A stretch of 64,000 nt of DNA from Methanolobus tindarius DSM 2278. GTDB taxonomy: Archaea; Halobacteriota; Methanosarcinia; Methanosarcinales; Methanosarcinaceae. Shown piece by piece: positions 29,130 to 37,598 of this stretch. Position 1 is the first letter of the stretch, and each line of letters begins with the position of its first letter. The stretch spans positions 3,074,879 through 3,138,878 of the forward strand of contig NZ_AZAJ01000001.1 of the NCBI RefSeq assembly GCF_000504205.1. Reading direction: 5' to 3'. Below the pieces are notes generated by a model. That model was not told where the DNA came from and searched no databases. It saw nothing but the letters and a program-made list of their open reading frames with translations. The translations under genes were made by a program, and so were the position numbers.

Positions 29130-30308
29130 ATGACAAAACAACGTTTTTTTATTTACTCAACTGTGTTTCTCATAATGGGTTTATCGAATTCCGTTATCCC
29201 TGTATTACCTGAGATTGCTACTGCTTCATCGGTGGAATCAGGCACCATTAAATACACTTTACTTTTTTCCGGCTATTTTATCGGAGCATTGTTAACCCTG
29301 ATACCTTTTGGATTTTTAGCAGACAGGTATGAACATCTGAAGATAATCATTTTTGCTATTTCCCTTACAGCAATTTCCGGCACAATCCTTACTGTAACCA
29401 ACAACATCCATATAATGATACTAGCAAGAATACTTGAAGGCAGCGCATGTGGTGCATTTTTCCCAGCAGCATATGCAATGCTTGCCGAATATCAGAAAAA
29501 AAATCAATATCTGGGAGAATTCAATTTTCTCCTTAATGCCGGACTTGCAGCTGGTGCCGTAGCTGCAGGATTTCTGGCAGAGGAATTCATTAAAGGAGCA
29601 ATTATACTTTTCACCCTGCTTTCGTTAATAGTGTTTATTTTTGGCATTATTAAAACAAGTTCACTCCAAAACAAGAACAAGAATAATAACAATGATAAAA
29701 ATAATTTAATCCTGAAAACAAAAGAAAAAACACATTCAAACACCACATTTTTGATTGAAATTAAAAAGATTCTCAATATAGCATTCAATCCATTATTTAT
29801 CAGAACATGGATAATTGCATTTTTTATTTTTGGAATCACCGGAGTAATGCTTGCCTATTACCCACAATACAGTAGCGGAATGCTCAGCAAACCGGAACTT
29901 GGCATAGTGATAGCTACAGTATATATTAGCTCAATGACCACCAACCTCATTGCAGGAAGGTCAAGCATTAAGTTCAGAAAAATGATCAACATAGGCATAA
30001 TACTTGCTGCTGCAGGCGTCATAATCTCAATTACACAACCCCTTCCAGGTTTTACGCTTCTTGGCATAGGATCGGGAATGGCAATGATAGGTTTACCAAT
30101 AGCAGTTTCCTGTATGAATATCAGTAAAAAGGACAAAGGACTGAGCATGGGAATCTTCACAACATTTACATACATGGGACTTGCATTCCTACCCATGATA
30201 ATGGGCTACTTTACAAAATACGGATATCTTGCAATGTTTGCAGGAACTTCATTGCTTATGGTTCTTACACTTTTACTGAAAGACAGTAGTAAAAATAATA
30301 CCAGTTAA
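29130..30308 (+). CDS. MFS transporter, 12-helix type
   Basis: 392 residues with about 12 membrane helices and the MFS motif A at FGFLADRYEHLK between helices 2 and 3. The central cytoplasmic loop is extremely Asn/Lys-rich (about residues 176-200). It resembles DHA1-type drug or metabolite efflux proteins, but the substrate is not predictable. It follows the gene-poor region. The next gene starts 60 bp downstream on the same strand. Confidence 0.85.
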   Translation: MTKQRFFIYSTVFLIMGLSNSVIPVLPEIATASSVESGTIKYTLLFSGYFIGALLTLIPFGFLADRYEHLKIIIFAISLTAISGTILTVTNNIHIMILARILEGSACGAFFPAAYAMLAEYQKKNQYLGEFNFLLNAGLAAGAVAAGFLAEEFIKGAIILFTLLSLIVFIFGIIKTSSLQNKNKNNNNDKNNLILKTKEKTHSNTTFLIEIKKILNIAFNPLFIRTWIIAFFIFGITGVMLAYYPQYSSGMLSKPELGIVIATVYISSMTTNLIAGRSSIKFRKMINIGIILAAAGVIISITQPLPGFTLLGIGSGMAMIGLPIAVSCMNISKKDKGLSMGIFTTFTYMGLAFLPMIMGYFTKYGYLAMFAGTSLLMVLTLLLKDSSKNNTS

Positions 30309-30368
30309 ATCAAATTAACTAAAACAAAATAGAAACTTTATTATGGAGATACTCTCTTTCTTGGATTG

Positions 30369-31847
30369 ATGGCACCAATAAAAAACGTAAAAACGATCAT
30401 CCCTGAAAGAAAAATTGATACATTACACCTGTTTTCAATTTGCTGTGTCCTCTTACTGGCATTGTGTATTTTCACATCTCAGGCAGGAGCAAATACAGTT
30501 GCAGAAATAGGATCAGTAAACACTCCCCATGGTGCCATTATTCTCATTGTTGATGGTTTAAGTTCATGTTATGTGTATCCTGAATACACTCCTTACGCAA
30601 TAGATGGCTCAATGCTTGAAAAAGCAGAAGTACCTAAAATGCAGGAAATATTCGATAATAGTTGCAGGGTGCTTGATGTAACAGTACCTCAGACATTTAC
30701 CGAAGGTGGTCACTCTGTGATTGCCACAGGATATTCCAGTGCGGATTCTGAACTCACCGGCTCTTCAGAAACAACATTCTTTGACGTAGCTCATGATTAC
30801 GATTATCTAACGTTCGCGATTATGGAAAAAGGCGATTCAGGTGGTTTTTGCAGCAAACAAAATGTAGTCATGCATGACACAAAAAACTCCATAAACGAAC
30901 CTGAAATGGTCATTCAAACAAACAGGATTACAGAAGACAATAAAGATATTTCATTTGAAATCACTGAATTGATGCAGGTTCATTCCTCCGGGTTACAGGA
31001 AAAACTTGATCAGTATCCGGAAGGCTCTATTGAACGTTACATTGAATATAACGCGTGGGTTATTGAAACCGGGATTGATGTTATTGAATACATGGAAAAA
31101 GAGTATCCTGAACAAAATTACATACTCACATTAAATGCAGGTGCTGTTGACAGTGCCGGCCATTACAAAAAGAATAGCGGTTATATTGAATGTATTGAAG
31201 GAATCGACAACATAAGTTATTCACTTTATGAAACCTGCCTTACAAACAATCTGGCTTTTGTACTTACAGGTGATCACGGAATGGCATTCCCTACCAATGA
31301 TTCAAAGGGAGGACACCAGGCAGAAAAATATTCCGTAATGACTGAATCACAAAAAGTTCCACTGGCAATAACTGCAAATGATATTGATAATGTTGTTGTG
31401 GAAGGGAAGTTCAAACAGGAAGACATTGCACCAACAATTCTTGAGGTACTAAACATCCCCGGTAAACTGAGACTTGCAGACGGAGAGGCAATTGCACTTA
31501 AAGATTACACAAATGTTGAAGTAATTATTCCGGAAGAAGGCGAACTATCTTTAACAAAAGAGGGAAAAATTCTCTTTAAAGATAATGTCAGAGAAAACAT
31601 TGCTTTTCAGGGTATTGAGCCGGATAATGAATATATACTAACATTTAAACCTTTATCAGAACAGGACAATACTGTACAGCAATCTTTCAGTGCTGGATCA
31701 GATATTTCAGTCAAACTCTTAACATCAGAACAGAGCTCCAAAAGTGATAAATCCTATCAGAACTCTCGTTATATAGAAGGAGGATTTCTGATAGGAGCAG
31801 TAAATCTTACAGGACTGCTGCTGATACGTAAAATACTGAAGGAATAA
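30369..31847 (+). CDS. exported alkaline-phosphatase-superfamily protein
   Basis: About 492 residues: an N-terminal signal/anchor (about 20-42), an alkaline phosphatase/sulfatase-fold catalytic domain, and a C-terminal beta domain with a final membrane helix (GGFLIGAVNLTGLLLI). Metal-site and catalytic patterns visible: IVDG near the start, TFTEGGHS (nucleophile Thr/Ser region), AVDSAGH, TGDHGM and KGGH. This order matches phosphomutase/phosphodiesterase/sulfatase relatives, so surface hydrolysis of a phospho- or sulfo-ester is likely, substrate unknown. ATG 30369 is chosen over TTG 30366. Confidence 0.75.
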   Translation: MAPIKNVKTIIPERKIDTLHLFSICCVLLLALCIFTSQAGANTVAEIGSVNTPHGAIILIVDGLSSCYVYPEYTPYAIDGSMLEKAEVPKMQEIFDNSCRVLDVTVPQTFTEGGHSVIATGYSSADSELTGSSETTFFDVAHDYDYLTFAIMEKGDSGGFCSKQNVVMHDTKNSINEPEMVIQTNRITEDNKDISFEITELMQVHSSGLQEKLDQYPEGSIERYIEYNAWVIETGIDVIEYMEKEYPEQNYILTLNAGAVDSAGHYKKNSGYIECIEGIDNISYSLYETCLTNNLAFVLTGDHGMAFPTNDSKGGHQAEKYSVMTESQKVPLAITANDIDNVVVEGKFKQEDIAPTILEVLNIPGKLRLADGEAIALKDYTNVEVIIPEEGELSLTKEGKILFKDNVRENIAFQGIEPDNEYILTFKPLSEQDNTVQQSFSAGSDISVKLLTSEQSSKSDKSYQNSRYIEGGFLIGAVNLTGLLLIRKILKE

Positions 31848-31906
31848 TCCACACACTAATTCAAAGGCAGATAATTGCTATAAAGTTACTGAAAGGAATT
31901 GATGCC

Positions 31907-32704
31907 ATGAAGCAAGAGCTACATAGACTTTTGCAGAATACATTTGAGATCTTCACATCTGAAGAAGCACTGGTACGCATAAACTCATCGAAAGCCCTGA
32001 TAGTAGGAGATATTCATGGGAATCTGGAAGCACTTGAATTTATTCTGTACATTCGCAAAGCGCTGAAATGTGATCACATTGTATTTCTTGGGGACTACGT
32101 TGACAAAGGCCCCCATTCTTCCGAGGTTCTCGAAAGGATCCTGACAATGAAATTGCGGGAACCTGAAACATTTATTTTGCTGAGGGGAAATCATGAAACA
32201 AGAGAAATGAACAGAGTTCATGGTTTTTATGATGAAATACTGGACGAGGAATTGTTCCTTGCTGCAAACCGCACATTTGAGGAAATGCCGATTTCTGCAG
32301 TCATAAATGATTCTATTTTCTGCGTGCACGGGGGCATTCCCGGACCTGTTGATCTGAATCGCATAAATAAAGAAGAAGCGTTTCATTTTTTATGGAATGA
32401 CCCAAGTGGTTGTGACGGCATAAGCGCGTCTATCCGTGGACCACGGCCCAAATGTTTCGGAGGAGATGTATTTAGTGAATTCATGGACAAAAATGATCTG
32501 TCTTTAATGATACGGGGACATACAGCACTTTTTACAGGTCATGCCTGGTGCTTTGATCGAAAAATGCTTTCTATTTTTTCCTGCCCGGAATACACAGGAA
32601 AATCCAATAATGCCTCTTTTGCCTTATTAAAGGAAGATGAATTATCCATATTTACATTTGGAAGAACTGGCAATTGTTACTCACTAATTCGTAATAACTT
32701 CTGA
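31907..32704 (+). CDS. PPP-family serine/threonine protein phosphatase
   Basis: 265 residues carrying the PPP metal-site signatures: GDIHGN, GDYVDKG and RGNHE, followed by HGGIPGP and IRGHTA. It is a cytoplasmic protein phosphatase of the PP1/PP2A type found in some archaea. Targets are unknown. AAAGGAATTGATGCC precedes the start. A Ser/Thr kinase is not in the window. Confidence 0.9.
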   Translation: MKQELHRLLQNTFEIFTSEEALVRINSSKALIVGDIHGNLEALEFILYIRKALKCDHIVFLGDYVDKGPHSSEVLERILTMKLREPETFILLRGNHETREMNRVHGFYDEILDEELFLAANRTFEEMPISAVINDSIFCVHGGIPGPVDLNRINKEEAFHFLWNDPSGCDGISASIRGPRPKCFGGDVFSEFMDKNDLSLMIRGHTALFTGHAWCFDRKMLSIFSCPEYTGKSNNASFALLKEDELSIFTFGRTGNCYSLIRNNF

Positions 32705-32784
32705 TTCACAATTGTTAAATACACTTAGTGAGTATATTTTATTGTTAAACATATTCTGAAATTCTGAATATGGGGGAAGATCAT

Positions 32785-33009
32785 ATGTCAGAAACAAACA
32801 TCGATGTTAGGGGACAGACCTGTCCGGTGCCTCTTGTAGAATGCCGTAAAGCAATTCGTAAAGCTGCCCCGGGAGATGAAATTGTAATTACAGGGACACA
32901 TTCTGCTTCCAAAAAAGAAATACCCATGGCCTGTGAGGCAATGGGACTTGAAGTTGTGGAAGTGGATGAAAATAACGAAAAAGAGTGGACAATCCGAATT
33001 AAGAAATGA
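32785..33009 (+). CDS. TusA-family sulfur carrier
   Basis: 74 residues with the TusA/SirA fold: DVRGQTCPVPLVECRKA contains the CPxP motif with the persulfide-carrying Cys. GGGGGAAG precedes ATG 32785, so the upstream ATG at 32770 is less likely. It heads a same-strand cluster with a DsrE-like protein, an IscS homologue and IscU, suggesting sulfur relay for Fe-S or thio-modification chemistry. Confidence 0.9.
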   Translation: MSETNIDVRGQTCPVPLVECRKAIRKAAPGDEIVITGTHSASKKEIPMACEAMGLEVVEVDENNEKEWTIRIKK

Positions 33010-33033: not shown

Positions 33034-33453
33034 ATGACAGAAAAGGCAGTAATAGTTGCACATAGTGGTGACCTTGACAAGATATATAGTGCACTTATAG
33101 TTGCAAACGGTGCGCTTTCCATGGGAATGGAAGCATCTATATTTTTTACATTCTGGGGTTTGCAATGTCTTAAAAAAGGAGGGCTGGACAAAGGTCCCCT
33201 TTCCAGAATGAATTTACTGGGACTGGGTAAATGGATGGTAAAAAGCAGGATGAAAAAAGCCAATGTTGTTTCACTTGAAAAACTGATGGAAGATTACAAA
33301 GAACTTGGCGGAAAGATAATCGCCTGCGAGATGACCATGGAAATAATGGGAATCAAGGAAGAGGAATTGAACAACCAATGGATAGACGAATATGGTGCTG
33401 TTGGCACTTATATAATGGAAGCAAAAGATGCCAAGATTACCCTATTTATCTAA
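33034..33453 (+). CDS. DsrE/DsrF-like (DsrE2) protein
   Basis: 139 residues. The start MTEKAVIVAHSGDLDKIY and the conserved Cys in KIIACEMTMEIMGI are typical of DsrE2-type proteins, which carry or reduce persulfide sulfur. An internal hydrophobic segment (ASIFFTFWGLQCL) suggests membrane contact. It lies 24 bp after tusA and is likely cotranscribed. Confidence 0.85.
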   Translation: MTEKAVIVAHSGDLDKIYSALIVANGALSMGMEASIFFTFWGLQCLKKGGLDKGPLSRMNLLGLGKWMVKSRMKKANVVSLEKLMEDYKELGGKIIACEMTMEIMGIKEEELNNQWIDEYGAVGTYIMEAKDAKITLFI

Positions 33454-33491: not shown

Positions 33492-34664
33492 ATGTTAGAT
33501 GAAATGATTTACCTCGATAATTCAGCCAGTACGCGCCTGGACGAAAGAGTTCTGGATGCAATGAAACCATATTTCTTTGATACATATGCAGTGGCAACAT
33601 CTGAATTTGGATATTCCATGGGAATCGATGCAAAAGAAGGTCTTGAAGAAGCCAGGACAATAATAGCAAATTCCCTGGGTGCAACACCTGAGGAAATTGT
33701 ATTCACATCAGGTGACACAGAATCAAGTAATATGGCAATAAAAGGCGTTGTTGCAGCTCTTAAGAAAAAGAAGGGAGAGCACATAATCGTATCAAAATTA
33801 GAGGATTTTGCAGTACTTAATACTGCTAAAAATCTCGAGAAACAGGGATACAGTGTAGACTACATTAGTGTTGATTCAGAAGGCTTTGTGGATCTTGAGG
33901 AACTCAAGAGCAAGATAAGGGATGATACTGTCCTTGTATCCATCCAGTATGCAAATCAGGAAATAGGTACTCTTCAGGACCTTGATGCCATCGCAAAGAT
34001 ATGTAAGGAAAAAGATGTGCTTTTCCATACTGATGCAACGCACAGCTACATGCGAGTACCAATTAATGTTTCACAAACACCTGTAGACATGATAAGCATG
34101 TCAGCCCATACAATCCACGGACCAAGAGGTGTCGGTGCACTTTATATCCGCAAGGGTACACCCATTACTAAATGGATGGATGGCGGCTATCAGGAAACAG
34201 ATCGTCGTGCAGGACTTGAAAATATCCCGGGAGCTGTAGGTTTTGCAAAAGCAGTGGAACTTGTAACAGACAAGGAAACTGAATTTCTGGCTTCGATGAG
34301 AGATTACACTATAAAAAGAGTCTTCGAAGAAATACCCCATGTCACACTAAACGGAAGCAAGAAACAGAGAACGCCACAGAATGCCAATATCACGTTCCAT
34401 TACGTGGAAGGTGAATCAATGACCCTGCATCTGGATATGAGAGGGTTTGCAGTAAGCACCGGGTCTGCATGCTTCAGCCGGTCACTGGAAGCAAGTCATG
34501 TTATTCTCGGCATTGGCGGAGATCATGAAAGGGCACACGGCTCCATCAGGTTCACATTCGGACGCTATAACAGCATGAATGATGTTGATGCTGTGGTAGA
34601 TGCAATCAAAGAGATAGTAAAGCAACTCAGGGACATTAGTCCCCTGTATAATAAAGAGGCATGA
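33492..34664 (+). CDS. IscS/NifS homologue lacking the PLP lysine
   Basis: 390 residues with the fold signatures of class V cysteine desulfurases: start LDNSASTRLDERV, FTSGDTESSN, and the sulfur-accepting loop Cys327 in STGSACFSRSLE. The PLP lysine position reads SAHTIHGPRG, so Thr207 replaces Lys. The PLP-stacking His of the EH(K) motif reads LEDF. Archaeoglobus fulgidus IscS also lacks this Lys (Asp there) and does not act as a normal desulfurase, and the same is expected here. It may be an Fe-S scaffold partner, bringing Cys327 to IscU. GGGAG upstream supports the ATG. It is followed immediately by iscU. Confidence 0.85.
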   Translation: MLDEMIYLDNSASTRLDERVLDAMKPYFFDTYAVATSEFGYSMGIDAKEGLEEARTIIANSLGATPEEIVFTSGDTESSNMAIKGVVAALKKKKGEHIIVSKLEDFAVLNTAKNLEKQGYSVDYISVDSEGFVDLEELKSKIRDDTVLVSIQYANQEIGTLQDLDAIAKICKEKDVLFHTDATHSYMRVPINVSQTPVDMISMSAHTIHGPRGVGALYIRKGTPITKWMDGGYQETDRRAGLENIPGAVGFAKAVELVTDKETEFLASMRDYTIKRVFEEIPHVTLNGSKKQRTPQNANITFHYVEGESMTLHLDMRGFAVSTGSACFSRSLEASHVILGIGGDHERAHGSIRFTFGRYNSMNDVDAVVDAIKEIVKQLRDISPLYNKEA

Positions 34665-34673
34665 GGCGATAAT

Positions 34674-35309
34674 ATGAAATTTCCATACACAGAAAAGGTA
34701 CTTGAGCATTTTAAGAATCCACGCAATGTAGGAAAAATGGAAAATCCGGATGGAAAAGGACTGGAAGGCAGCCCTGCATGTGGAGACATGGTTGCAGTCT
34801 ATCTTCAGGTGAACCCGGACACCCAGGTAATCGAGGATATCAAATTCGAGTCATACGGATGTGCTTCTAACATTGCAACAGCCTCCATAATAACTGAGCT
34901 TGCAAAAGGCAAGACGGTTGAAGAAGCTAAAAAGATAAGCTGGCAGGAGGCTACCGAAGAGCTGGGAGGACTTCCACCTGTAAAAGCCCATTGTTCCGTA
35001 CTTGCAGTAGAAGGACTTCGTGCAGCCATAAGAGATTATGAGGAAAAGCACGGCCTTGTAAGTGAACAGGAACCAACCACTGTTGATGTTATCAGAAGCA
35101 GGTTGAAGCATGTGATGAACCCAATGGCAGGGCTGGATATTATCAGGACCGAGCTGGTCACCAAAATGGAGATCAACGATGGTGTTGTCAGAATACTTAT
35201 TGACCTGCCGTCAAACCATCAGTTTGCAGCAAACATCAAGGAAGAGGTCACAGAGAAGCTTGAATCCCTCTGGGATGTTAATGAGGTTAATGTTGTCTTT
35301 ACTGAGTAA
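34674..35309 (+). CDS. iscU: IscU Fe-S scaffold fused to DUF59-like domain
   Basis: The N-terminal ~125 residues are IscU: the three cluster-ligand Cys are in SPACGD, YGCASN and AHCSV. The C-terminal ~75 residues (from TTVDVIRSRLKHVMNP) resemble the DUF59/MIP18 family of Fe-S assembly proteins (EINDGVVRILIDLP). It assembles and hands over Fe-S clusters. It starts 9 bp after the IscS-like gene with GAGGCGATA upstream, so the pair is one operon. The fusion is unusual relative to stand-alone bacterial IscU. Confidence 0.85.
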   Translation: MKFPYTEKVLEHFKNPRNVGKMENPDGKGLEGSPACGDMVAVYLQVNPDTQVIEDIKFESYGCASNIATASIITELAKGKTVEEAKKISWQEATEELGGLPPVKAHCSVLAVEGLRAAIRDYEEKHGLVSEQEPTTVDVIRSRLKHVMNPMAGLDIIRTELVTKMEINDGVVRILIDLPSNHQFAANIKEEVTEKLESLWDVNEVNVVFTE

Positions 35310-35336: not shown

Positions 35337-37598
35337 TTACCAATTGAAATCTGAATTCTTCAGTGATTTAAGATTCTCTTCGCAAAAAATGATTATTCGC
35401 GGATCTTTTATTTCTTTGCCTATCACTAGTGCCTGATTATAGTGCTCAATGGATTTCTCGACTTCACCAAGAACACTATATGCGAGACCGAGGCTGCTGA
35501 GACGAGTACCTTCACCGTTCCGGTCCCCAATCTCACGGAAAATTGCAAGAGCCTGTTCACCGTAATCAATGGCTTTCTCAACCTGACCAAGAACATGGTA
35601 AGCGTTGCCAAGGTTGCCGAGATCACTGCCTTCACCGCACCTGTCTCCAATCTCACGAGAAATCACAAGTGCTTGTTCATGGTACTCAATAGCTTTCCAA
35701 AGCCCACCAAGAACATAGTAAGCGTTGCCAAGGTTGCCGAGACGAATACCTTCGCTGCGTCTGTCCCCAATCATACGGGAAATCACGAGTGCCTGCTCAT
35801 AGTAATCAATAGCTTTCTCGACTTCACCAAGATCACTATATGCGAGACCTAGGCTGCCGAGACAGGCACCTTCGCATTTCCTGTCCTCAATCTCATGGGA
35901 AATCACAAGACCCTGTTCATGGTACTCAATAGCTTTCTCGACTTCACCAAGAACATAGTAAGCGTTGCCAAGGTTGCCGAGCTCAATGACTTCACCGCAC
36001 TTGTCCCCAATCTCACGAGAGATTATAAGTGCCCGTTTATGGTACTCAATAGCTTTCTCGACCTCACCAAGAATATTATAAGCCCTGGCGAGGTTGCCGA
36101 TAACTGCACTATGAGTAACCATACTGCTCAACAAAATTTTATTCTCAAAAGGATTATCTGGTAGCAGTCCTGAATAAAGGTCAACAAGCATTTTGAAGTT
36201 TCCCCATTTATCAAGGTCTCGATGCAGCCCATTATCAAAAATAATATCTGCAGCTACGTCATACTCTTTGGCAAGGCAGGCATGATAATGTGCTTCTATC
36301 AATGATAGAACATCCTCTTTTTTTGTGCGTGTTTCTGGTATGGGAAGTGAAAGATAGTACTCGCAAGCAAGTTTGTGGATTTCCATCTTATTTTCCAGAT
36401 CATCATACGAAAACTCCTGAACTAAAGGGTGAAGCCAATAGTTACCAACATGATCAGTTTCTAGAAGCGAATTGTCAATAAGTTTCCGCAAAGCATCAGG
36501 GGATGTCTTATCTGTGAACATTCTTTTGAGTGCAGTTATGGATTCAGGCTGGCGGAAGACTGCTATGCGCTCTAACAATTCTTTTTCATCCCCTGCCAGT
36601 TTATCGAATAACTTTCTTGCCTTTTTGATAGTATCGTATTTGCTTTTTTGATACATGCTCAGGTCATCCAGTGCATCATTTATGCCAAAAATCTTAACAA
36701 TATCTATCAAAAGCTTCAATGCTAAAGGATGTCCATCTACACCTTTCACTAATTCTTCTAACTTTGCAGGTTCGACTTCATCAAGTCCATTCTTTCTCAG
36801 GTAATCAATACCAAAATCTATGTTTAAACCCTTAAGTTCTTTTTTTTCTTCATCTATTACATCAATTAAACTTTCTCCGTTCTTCAGTACAGGCAAAGTT
36901 CTGCTTGTTACGATTATCCTGGCTTGATGAGTACTGTTGCGTAAGGATGTAAACAATAGATCAATTCCTTCATCATGGAATTCCCTGCTATCCATTATGG
37001 TTTCCAGGTTATCAAAGATCAGCCAAACAGAGTCTCGATCTCTTAATTCTGCAGTTAATTTATTGATATCATCCTGCCCAGCGTCCCTTCCTTCTGTTTT
37101 GAAACTTGCAATGTCTGTTTTGTTCATATAGCTTGCAAGCTTTTCAAGAATATCTCCTAATGTAGCACTTTGGTTTTTATTGAAATCTAACCAGAATGGA
37201 ATAGGAACGTTTGCTGGCCTTGTTTCAACAAGAGCCCGTGCTAATGTTGTCTTGCCCACACCACCTATGCCACTAATCAATAAAATACGATGATTCTGAA
37301 GATACTCCAGATTTTTACTCAGTTCAAGAAATCGGTTCTCAATAACAAATTCACGAAGTCGTGGTGGAAGATTTGGAAGAATTGAAGGATTATAACTATT
37401 TATGATTTTTAGATTTGTCTCTTCCATCCTTTTTTGATTAAGATTATCTATCAGTTCACTTAATTCTTTACCAGAGAGATTTTCTGAGTTGAACTGAATG
37501 ATATATTCTCCAATTGCAAGCTGGCCACTGGTGTCACCAATGTTTACATCCCTGCCAGCTGTTATGCCAGAACCACTAGCAACATCTTGCTTATCCAT
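35337..37598 (-). CDS. STAND ATPase: NB-ARC plus six TPR repeats
   Basis: 753 residues. A short glycine-rich N-terminal motif (GSGITAG, then SGQLAIGEYI, residues 8-33) is followed by a helical linker and an NB-ARC NTPase: Walker A GIGGVGKTT (110-118), Walker B LIFDN (193-197), sensor VTSR, and GHPLAL. A winged-helix region (YWLHPLVQEF) follows, then six 40-residue TPRs with the pattern LGNLGNAYxxLGEVEKAIEY, which are near-repeats at DNA level. Such proteins are autoinhibited switches; many act in phage defence. The upstream neighbour carries the same N-terminal motif, so both likely bind each other or a shared partner. Confidence 0.85.
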   Translation of the reverse strand: MDKQDVASGSGITAGRDVNIGDTSGQLAIGEYIIQFNSENLSGKELSELIDNLNQKRMEETNLKIINSYNPSILPNLPPRLREFVIENRFLELSKNLEYLQNHRILLISGIGGVGKTTLARALVETRPANVPIPFWLDFNKNQSATLGDILEKLASYMNKTDIASFKTEGRDAGQDDINKLTAELRDRDSVWLIFDNLETIMDSREFHDEGIDLLFTSLRNSTHQARIIVTSRTLPVLKNGESLIDVIDEEKKELKGLNIDFGIDYLRKNGLDEVEPAKLEELVKGVDGHPLALKLLIDIVKIFGINDALDDLSMYQKSKYDTIKKARKLFDKLAGDEKELLERIAVFRQPESITALKRMFTDKTSPDALRKLIDNSLLETDHVGNYWLHPLVQEFSYDDLENKMEIHKLACEYYLSLPIPETRTKKEDVLSLIEAHYHACLAKEYDVAADIIFDNGLHRDLDKWGNFKMLVDLYSGLLPDNPFENKILLSSMVTHSAVIGNLARAYNILGEVEKAIEYHKRALIISREIGDKCGEVIELGNLGNAYYVLGEVEKAIEYHEQGLVISHEIEDRKCEGACLGSLGLAYSDLGEVEKAIDYYEQALVISRMIGDRRSEGIRLGNLGNAYYVLGGLWKAIEYHEQALVISREIGDRCGEGSDLGNLGNAYHVLGQVEKAIDYGEQALAIFREIGDRNGEGTRLSSLGLAYSVLGEVEKSIEHYNQALVIGKEIKDPRIIIFCEENLKSLKNSDFNW

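Follow-up and report, generated by a model that had tools for sequence, protein, structure and literature searches.

The window analysed here, a stretch of 64,000 nucleotides from the genome of Methanolobus tindarius DSM 2278, carries four genes arranged head to tail on the forward strand in the order tusA-dsrE2-iscS1-iscU1, hereafter called the cassette. The first gene (32770-33009) encodes a TusA-like sulfurtransferase of 79 amino acids with a CPVP motif at Cys18 (PF01206, 6.2e-22), and judged by its relatives its true start may lie a few codons downstream. The second (33034-33453) encodes a DsrE2-like sulfur carrier of 139 amino acids bearing Cys98, which is matched by PF13686 (1.8e-37), by PF02635 and, under the cut-off of that profile, by NF047629 SulfCarrDsrE2 (1.3e-19). 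These profile matches bear out the initial annotation of the locus, which had named TusA and DsrE as the neighbours of an IscS homologue. The homologue itself, iscS1 (33492-34664; Aminotran_5, 5.1e-76), is an open reading frame that encodes 390 amino acids, its product lacking the catalytic lysine, and it is followed by iscU1 (34674-35309), which encodes 211 amino acids comprising an IscU/NifU_N domain (residues 5-126; PF01592, 2.9e-44) fused to an FeS_assembly_P domain (residues 139-207; PF01883, 9.2e-12). An Rfam search of the window returned one tRNA only and no other match. Adjoining the cassette on the reverse strand (35337-37598) is a gene for a 753-residue STAND-type NTPase (NB-ARC/nSTAND) with TPR repeats, an architecture that is that of signalling or defence NTPases. 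Upstream of the cassette (29130-32704, forward strand) lie genes for an MFS transporter, a Metalloenzyme-superfamily (phosphatase-like) protein and a calcineurin-like phosphoesterase; in Methanolobus loci the same genes are found again ahead of the cassette.

Alignment of IscS1 with E. coli K-12 IscS, taken from NC_000913.3, places Thr207 (SAHTIHGPRG; codon 34110-34112) at Lys206, the residue that forms the Schiff base with PLP, Asp105 (LEDF; 33804-33806) at His104, the probable general base, which stacks on PLP, and Cys327 (STGSACFS; 34470-34472) at Cys328, the cysteine of the persulfide loop, which is thus retained. These three readings had been made at the outset from the letters of the DNA, and all of them hold. 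Two more active-site substitutions were found beyond them, Gln183 to His184 (34041-34043) and Thr243 to Leu242, both at positions that are presumably PLP contacts in the E. coli enzyme, and the N-terminal FGNP/A-S loop of E. coli IscS reads YAVATSEFGY in IscS1. Asp180 of the PLP pocket and also His205 are retained as Asp181 and His206. Since Lys206 binds PLP in E. coli IscS and His104 is its probable general base, according to the review PMC8300815, and both residues are replaced, the classical reaction with cysteine is not expected from IscS1. The protein has nevertheless the fold of its family: the AlphaFold model (pLDDT 83) has human NFS1, E. coli IscS and Archaeoglobus fulgidus IscS as top Foldseek matches with a TM score of about 0.9, and the loops 33-42, 230-236 (mostly below 50) and 325-333 have low pLDDT. 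Of the features that define a type-I cysteine desulfurase, the fold and the loop cysteine are present and the Schiff-base lysine and His104 are absent. The best NCBIfam matches are NifS (455.8 bits against a cut-off of 530.75) and IscS (382.4 against 643.2), below every curated cut-off shown.

When the GTDB genome collection was searched by signature, 213 relatives were obtained; the best 80 of them were retained, and the residue counts that follow are those of the 80. The retrieval patterns spanned only residues 32-39 and 155-162, so that there was no selection for active-site positions. Thr207, Asp105, His184 and Cys327 are each present in 80 of the 80, as is Asp181, and His206 in 78; residue 242 is Leu in 49, Val in 26, Ile in 3, Pro in 1 and Gln in 1; and a lysine at position 207 occurs in none (0/80). 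Sequencing error or chance as the cause of the substitutions was ruled out by this invariance. Moreover, 38 positions are conserved in at least 95% of the 80 and differ both from E. coli IscS and from the lysine-bearing IscS of the same genome (L002), among them Lys227 (80/80, and 5/5 further members), which is Ala or Pro in those two proteins. Five extra members from Chloroflexota have Thr (3/5) or Leu (2/5; L188, L189) and never Lys (0/5) at position 207, and all five retain Asp105, His184, Lys227 and Cys327. Comparison with five close relatives gave dN/dS values of 0.028-0.050 at dS above 1, dS of a sixth pair being not computable; iscS1 is under purifying selection.

The nearest named relatives of IscS1 are from Methanolobus, and window-type iscS is retained in most Methanosarcinaceae genomes. 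Across 111 genomes of this family, the listed matches split into one set at 66-100% identity and another at about 52% or less. A survey of 392 genomes of the phylum had returned no match above 50% identity outside Methanosarcinaceae, and a restriction to that family was overturned by the GTDB signature search. The best 80 of the 213 relatives, mostly 66-71% identical to IscS1, include archaea outside the family (Methanofastidiosum, Heimdallarchaeota, Altiarchaeales, Thermoplasmata) and bacteria (Dehalococcoidia, Anaerolineae, Thermoflexia, Atribacteria, Syntrophales, Thermodesulfovibrionales, Deltaproteobacteria), many of these being metagenome bins in which single contigs may be misplaced. 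The distribution in Chloroflexota is sporadic (7 of 301 genomes), and one scan of viral contigs returned no relative of IscS1. Judged by sequence, lysine-less IscS is a real and widely conserved class in many anaerobic archaea and bacteria.

The cassette is conserved together with its iscS. Near the iscS genes of the best 80 of the 213 relatives, IscU1 was found at 78 loci, TusA at 70, DsrE at 69 and all three at 65. Cys18 is present in 69 of the 70 TusA copies and Cys98 in all 69 DsrE copies, and the IscU1 cluster ligands Cys36, Asp38, Cys63, His106 and Cys107 are intact in 78 of 78 cassettes. In the Methanococcoides-type genus g7 the cassette is split, the tusA-dsrE2 pair being located elsewhere in 7/7 genomes tested, and IscU1 was the only IscU homologue found in the two g7 genomes tested (G017, G021). 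A decaying relative of dsrE, with ten stop codons, adjoins a lysine-less iscS in another genome of the same family (G090:C27:26765-27175).

We then sorted 161 type-I IscS genes by residue 207 and sought tusA or dsrE within 3 kb. One or both were found beside 114 of the 123 lysine-less genes and beside 1 of the 38 lysine-bearing ones, counts that were obtained with tusA and dsrE profiles built from neighbours of lysine-less genes and that are not independent events, the lysine classes being clades. By class, the neighbours were found at 72 of 80 window-type loci, at 41 of 42 of the A. fulgidus type and at the single locus with Glu (1/1). In 20 further loci, scored with the same profiles and with the CPxP motif allowed in the first 60 residues instead of 45, tusA or dsrE stood beside 4/4 lysine-less and 0/16 lysine-bearing genes; 19 of the 20 had been chosen without regard to neighbours, and the G282 locus for its already seen tusA. 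Pfam TusA and DsrE profiles run on 33 genomes gave no match within 3 kb of the sampled lysine-bearing genes, positions being compared by eye. A pairing test controlled for relatedness had two contrasts, no significance and no power, and the raw Fisher p, which ignores relatedness, is not used as evidence. The eight window-type loci with neither neighbour are five from Methanococcoides, L072, whose MAG (G066) yielded no DsrE2, and two that lie where contigs end (L089, L114); the A. fulgidus-type exception is L245 only. The one linked gene among the 38 lysine-bearing ones (L117) adjoins a lysine-less cassette, and another lysine-bearing gene, on contig 105 of G267 and outside the 38, lies in divergent orientation to the tusA of an operon whose iscS is lysine-less. 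Lysine-bearing IscS genes stand beside lysine-less cassettes at L107 and L110 as well, an arrangement which, at these four places, may point to cross-feeding. The presence of lysine-less rather than lysine-bearing IscS beside tusA and dsrE is what a sulfur source supplied by TusA and DsrE predicts. Such a source had been proposed in the initial annotation; the linkage agrees with it, while the direction of sulfur flow is a matter of interpretation and cysteine may still be the origin of the sulfur.

It had also been proposed that IscS1 forms one class with A. fulgidus IscS (PDB 4EB5, 4HVK), in which Asp199 stands in place of the lysine. The two proteins share the IscS fold, the missing lysine and the retained loop cysteine, and A. 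fulgidus-type genes have, like the window, the operon order tusA-dsrE-iscS-iscU. In the genome whose chain is identical to A. fulgidus IscS (G215), both copies have dsrE directly upstream and one of them also tusA; five DsrE proteins of this type are 28-33% identical to the DsrE2 of the window and retain the aligned cysteine; and IscU keeps its CDCHC ligands in 38 of 38 operons of the A. fulgidus type. In contrast to IscS1, A. fulgidus IscS keeps the equivalent of His104 and has Asn-Asp for His205-Lys206 and Ala for Gln183, a set of His, Ala, Asn and Asp found at the four active-site positions in 20/20 A. fulgidus-type rows and absent from the window protein, which has Asp at 104, His at 183 and His-Thr at 205-206. 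Unlike IscU1, a related IscU (L224) is devoid of the FeS_assembly_P domain. One lysine-less operon of the A. fulgidus type encodes a 444-residue IscU fused to a pyridine-nucleotide-disulfide oxidoreductase (L238:5573-6904, reverse strand), possibly a built-in persulfide reductase, as would be expected if S0 must be reduced; the IscU of another lysine-less operon has the same length (L239:5709-7043, reverse strand; 444 residues).

The phylogeny of lysine-less homologues that the initial annotation had suggested divides them further. In a careful tree of 93 rows, A. fulgidus-type IscS forms its own clade (support 100/99) and the window clade is fully supported; lysine was lost twice in 200/200 bootstrap trees, and the AU test of a single loss gave p = 0.229. 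Quick trees of 76 and 80 rows with poorer sampling gave p-AU of 0.697 and 0.572 for a single loss, the tree in which the lysine-less types were held together scoring higher. Some near-duplicates, L158, L159, L236 and others were left out of the trees. Two losses rather than one are thus favoured by the sequences and not proven, and the proposed class is best described as two clades with different sets of substitutions.

The cassette has a counterpart in a studied methanogen. Locus L046 of genome G074, which we take to be Methanosarcina acetivorans, encodes TusA, DsrE, IscS1 and IscU1 at 69-75% identity to those of the window. The orthologue in the literature is the M. acetivorans pair IscS1-IscU1 (MA0808-MA0807), with the STGSACFS loop, no lysine and an IscU1 of 24.2 kDa (PMC7585200); the M. 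acetivorans IscS1 produced by itself was reported there to form inclusion bodies. There, Deere et al. (2020) reported that M. acetivorans IscS1 is without the catalytic lysine, likened it to A. fulgidus IscS and described four genes neighbouring iscS1 as 'of unknown function'; the terms TusA and DsrE have no occurrence in the available text of that paper. It is therefore already published that the M. acetivorans orthologue is without the lysine and that it resembles A. fulgidus IscS. The link to tusA and dsrE, the rule relating them to the lysine and the occurrence of the cassette across phyla were not found in the literature searched, a search made by title and abstract opening with subscription papers, the A. 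fulgidus structure papers included, mostly outside it.

Two better known systems resemble the cassette. In E. coli the same three protein families, IscS, IscU and TusA, work together, and IscS binds TusA and IscU at separate sites (available part of PMC2854127); in contrast to IscS1, which is without the desulfurase residues, E. coli IscS uses cysteine to form the persulfide that TusA receives. In sulfur oxidizers, tusA-dsrE2 and rhd-tusA-dsrE2 clusters pair TusA with DsrE2-type carriers as in the window (available part of PMC4175335); these clusters are tied to Hdr-like or Dsr sulfur oxidation systems, whereas the pair in the window is tied to iscS-iscU.

Taken together, our analysis supports the view, to which we give a probability of about 0.6, that IscS1 is an IscU partner with the fold of IscS that no longer desulfurates cysteine and that belongs to a four-protein line of Fe-S assembly fed by TusA and DsrE2. 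Its most likely role, judged from the substitutions and the gene neighbourhood, would be that of a docking and sulfur-accepting partner of IscU loaded by TusA and DsrE. Cys18 of TusA and Cys98 of DsrE2 would carry sulfane sulfur as persulfides and would pass it on to the mobile-loop cysteine, Cys327, of a lysine-less IscS dimer docked on IscU1, or directly to the docked IscU; IscU1 would then build the cluster on Cys36, Asp38, Cys63, His106 and Cys107, and the fused FeS_assembly_P domain might help to hand it on. TusA and DsrE could themselves be loaded by sulfane sulfur derived from sulfide or by a lysine-bearing desulfurase of the same cell. We infer the direction of flow from TusA and DsrE through IscS1 to IscU1, the formation of a persulfide at Cys327, the near or complete absence of PLP chemistry and the role of the fused domain. 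Since A. fulgidus IscS lends a cysteine ligand to the cluster of IscU, Cys327 may relay sulfur, ligate the cluster or do both.

Several published observations bear on this relay, all of them taken from the accessible parts of the papers cited. Sulfide alone persulfurates DsrE of Allochromatium vinosum (PMC3397948). M. acetivorans tolerates the loss of SufBC (PMC10500019), and the loss of iscSU2 causes a defect that is specific to cysteine (PMC7585200, PMC10500019), so that another route must exist; on sulfide, the organism needs neither SufBC nor IscSU2 (PMC10500019, PMC7585200). Against the direction of the relay, canonical TusA receives sulfur from IscS (PMC2854127, PMC3397948). Moreover, DsrE3A and TusA of Metallosphaera cuprina react with tetrathionate and not with sulfide or polysulfide, and its DsrE2B reacted with nothing tested (PMC4175335). 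The linkage to tusA and dsrE could also reflect the inheritance of an old operon, and the exceptions L072/G066 (no DsrE2 found), G090 (dsrE with stop codons) and L245 (neither neighbour) speak against the relay.

The closest competitor, which we consider possible but doubtful, keeps cysteine as the source: a lysine-bearing IscS or a SufS-like protein would make the persulfide, TusA and DsrE2 would ferry it, and IscS1 would be the acceptor dock. Besides the cassette, the M. tindarius genome encodes L002, an IscS that bears the lysine, L003, which is SufS-like and has a lysine in the corresponding motif, and L004, which matches weakly. With L002 and L003 in the same genome, cysteine could still be the ultimate sulfur source. 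L002 (G000:C1:1196039-1197577, reverse strand) is paired with an IscU that is without two ligands, having Asp for Cys36 and Arg for His106. Loss of ligands from the IscU of this second, lysine-bearing system was found in 10 of 10 genomes tested from g1 and g11, the window genome included, and in 0 of 2 tested from g10; in the g1 and g11 genomes tested, judging by the aligned ligands, the defective scaffold is thus the partner of the lysine-bearing IscS, and the intact scaffold that of the lysine-less IscS. This division, together with the lysine-bearing genes that adjoin cassettes at L117, L107, L110 and G267 contig 105, and with TusA being a known partner of IscS (in the part of PMC2854127 at hand), speaks for a cysteine-fed relay between two half-systems. 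Such a relay is compatible with the preferred explanation, for which the ligand losses of the second IscU speak as well, and names its donor. Against it, genomes of g7 have the complete cassette and, at E 1e-60, no other IscS, their remaining homologues being distant (about 30% identity), and the MAGs G446, G450 and G451, which may be incomplete, have no other IscS homologue at E 1e-6.

Less probable still is a purely structural IscS1, in which Cys327 would be a temporary ligand of the IscU1 cluster, sulfide would enter IscU1 directly, and TusA and DsrE would serve another purpose such as tRNA thiolation. Cys321 of A. fulgidus IscS does ligate a [2Fe-2S] cluster in the IscS-IscU complex (PMC9769115 and PMC7585200, in the parts accessible), and sulfide feeds IscU in an anaerobic E. 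coli iscS mutant according to the available part of PMC13015791. This explanation leaves aside the association of tusA and dsrE with the loss of lysine, as well as the strong conservation of the DsrE and TusA cysteines of the cassette. It is very unlikely that IscS1 is a desulfurase whose Schiff-base lysine has moved, for example to the clade-specific and invariant Lys227: the pocket does retain Asp181, but Thr243 has been lost along with the general base His104, Pro stands at the place of Lys227 in the A. fulgidus type, and the model gives no distance since loop 230-236 has pLDDT mostly below 50. The idea that iscS1 is a decaying, non-functional paralogue, suggested by the four lost active-site residues, is scarcely credible and is contradicted by the 38 conserved clade positions, by the low dN/dS of the five close pairs and by the retention of the gene in most Methanosarcinaceae genomes.

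With TusA and DsrE feeding IscS1 and IscU1 as the preferred reading, a broader and tentative suggestion, in which we place less confidence than in the relay itself, is that a relay-fed ISC system arose twice, IscS of anaerobes having become a PLP-free acceptor and dock, with clusters made from the inorganic sulfur of TusA and DsrE and without desulfuration of cysteine. In the window clade the PLP pocket would have been rebuilt, with invariant Asp105, His184, Lys227, Asp230, His313 and His345, for a different ligand, which might be iron, a small compound of sulfur or the carrier that arrives.

To conclude, our results provide a rule for annotation from sequence alone: where tusA and dsrE adjoin an IscS without its lysine, the name cysteine desulfurase should be withheld from it. 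Moreover, the cassette joins two sulfur carriers and an IscU with all its ligands to an IscS from which the classical reaction is not expected, and it is a concrete and deletable candidate for sulfide-fed Fe-S assembly in methanogens and other strict anaerobes.
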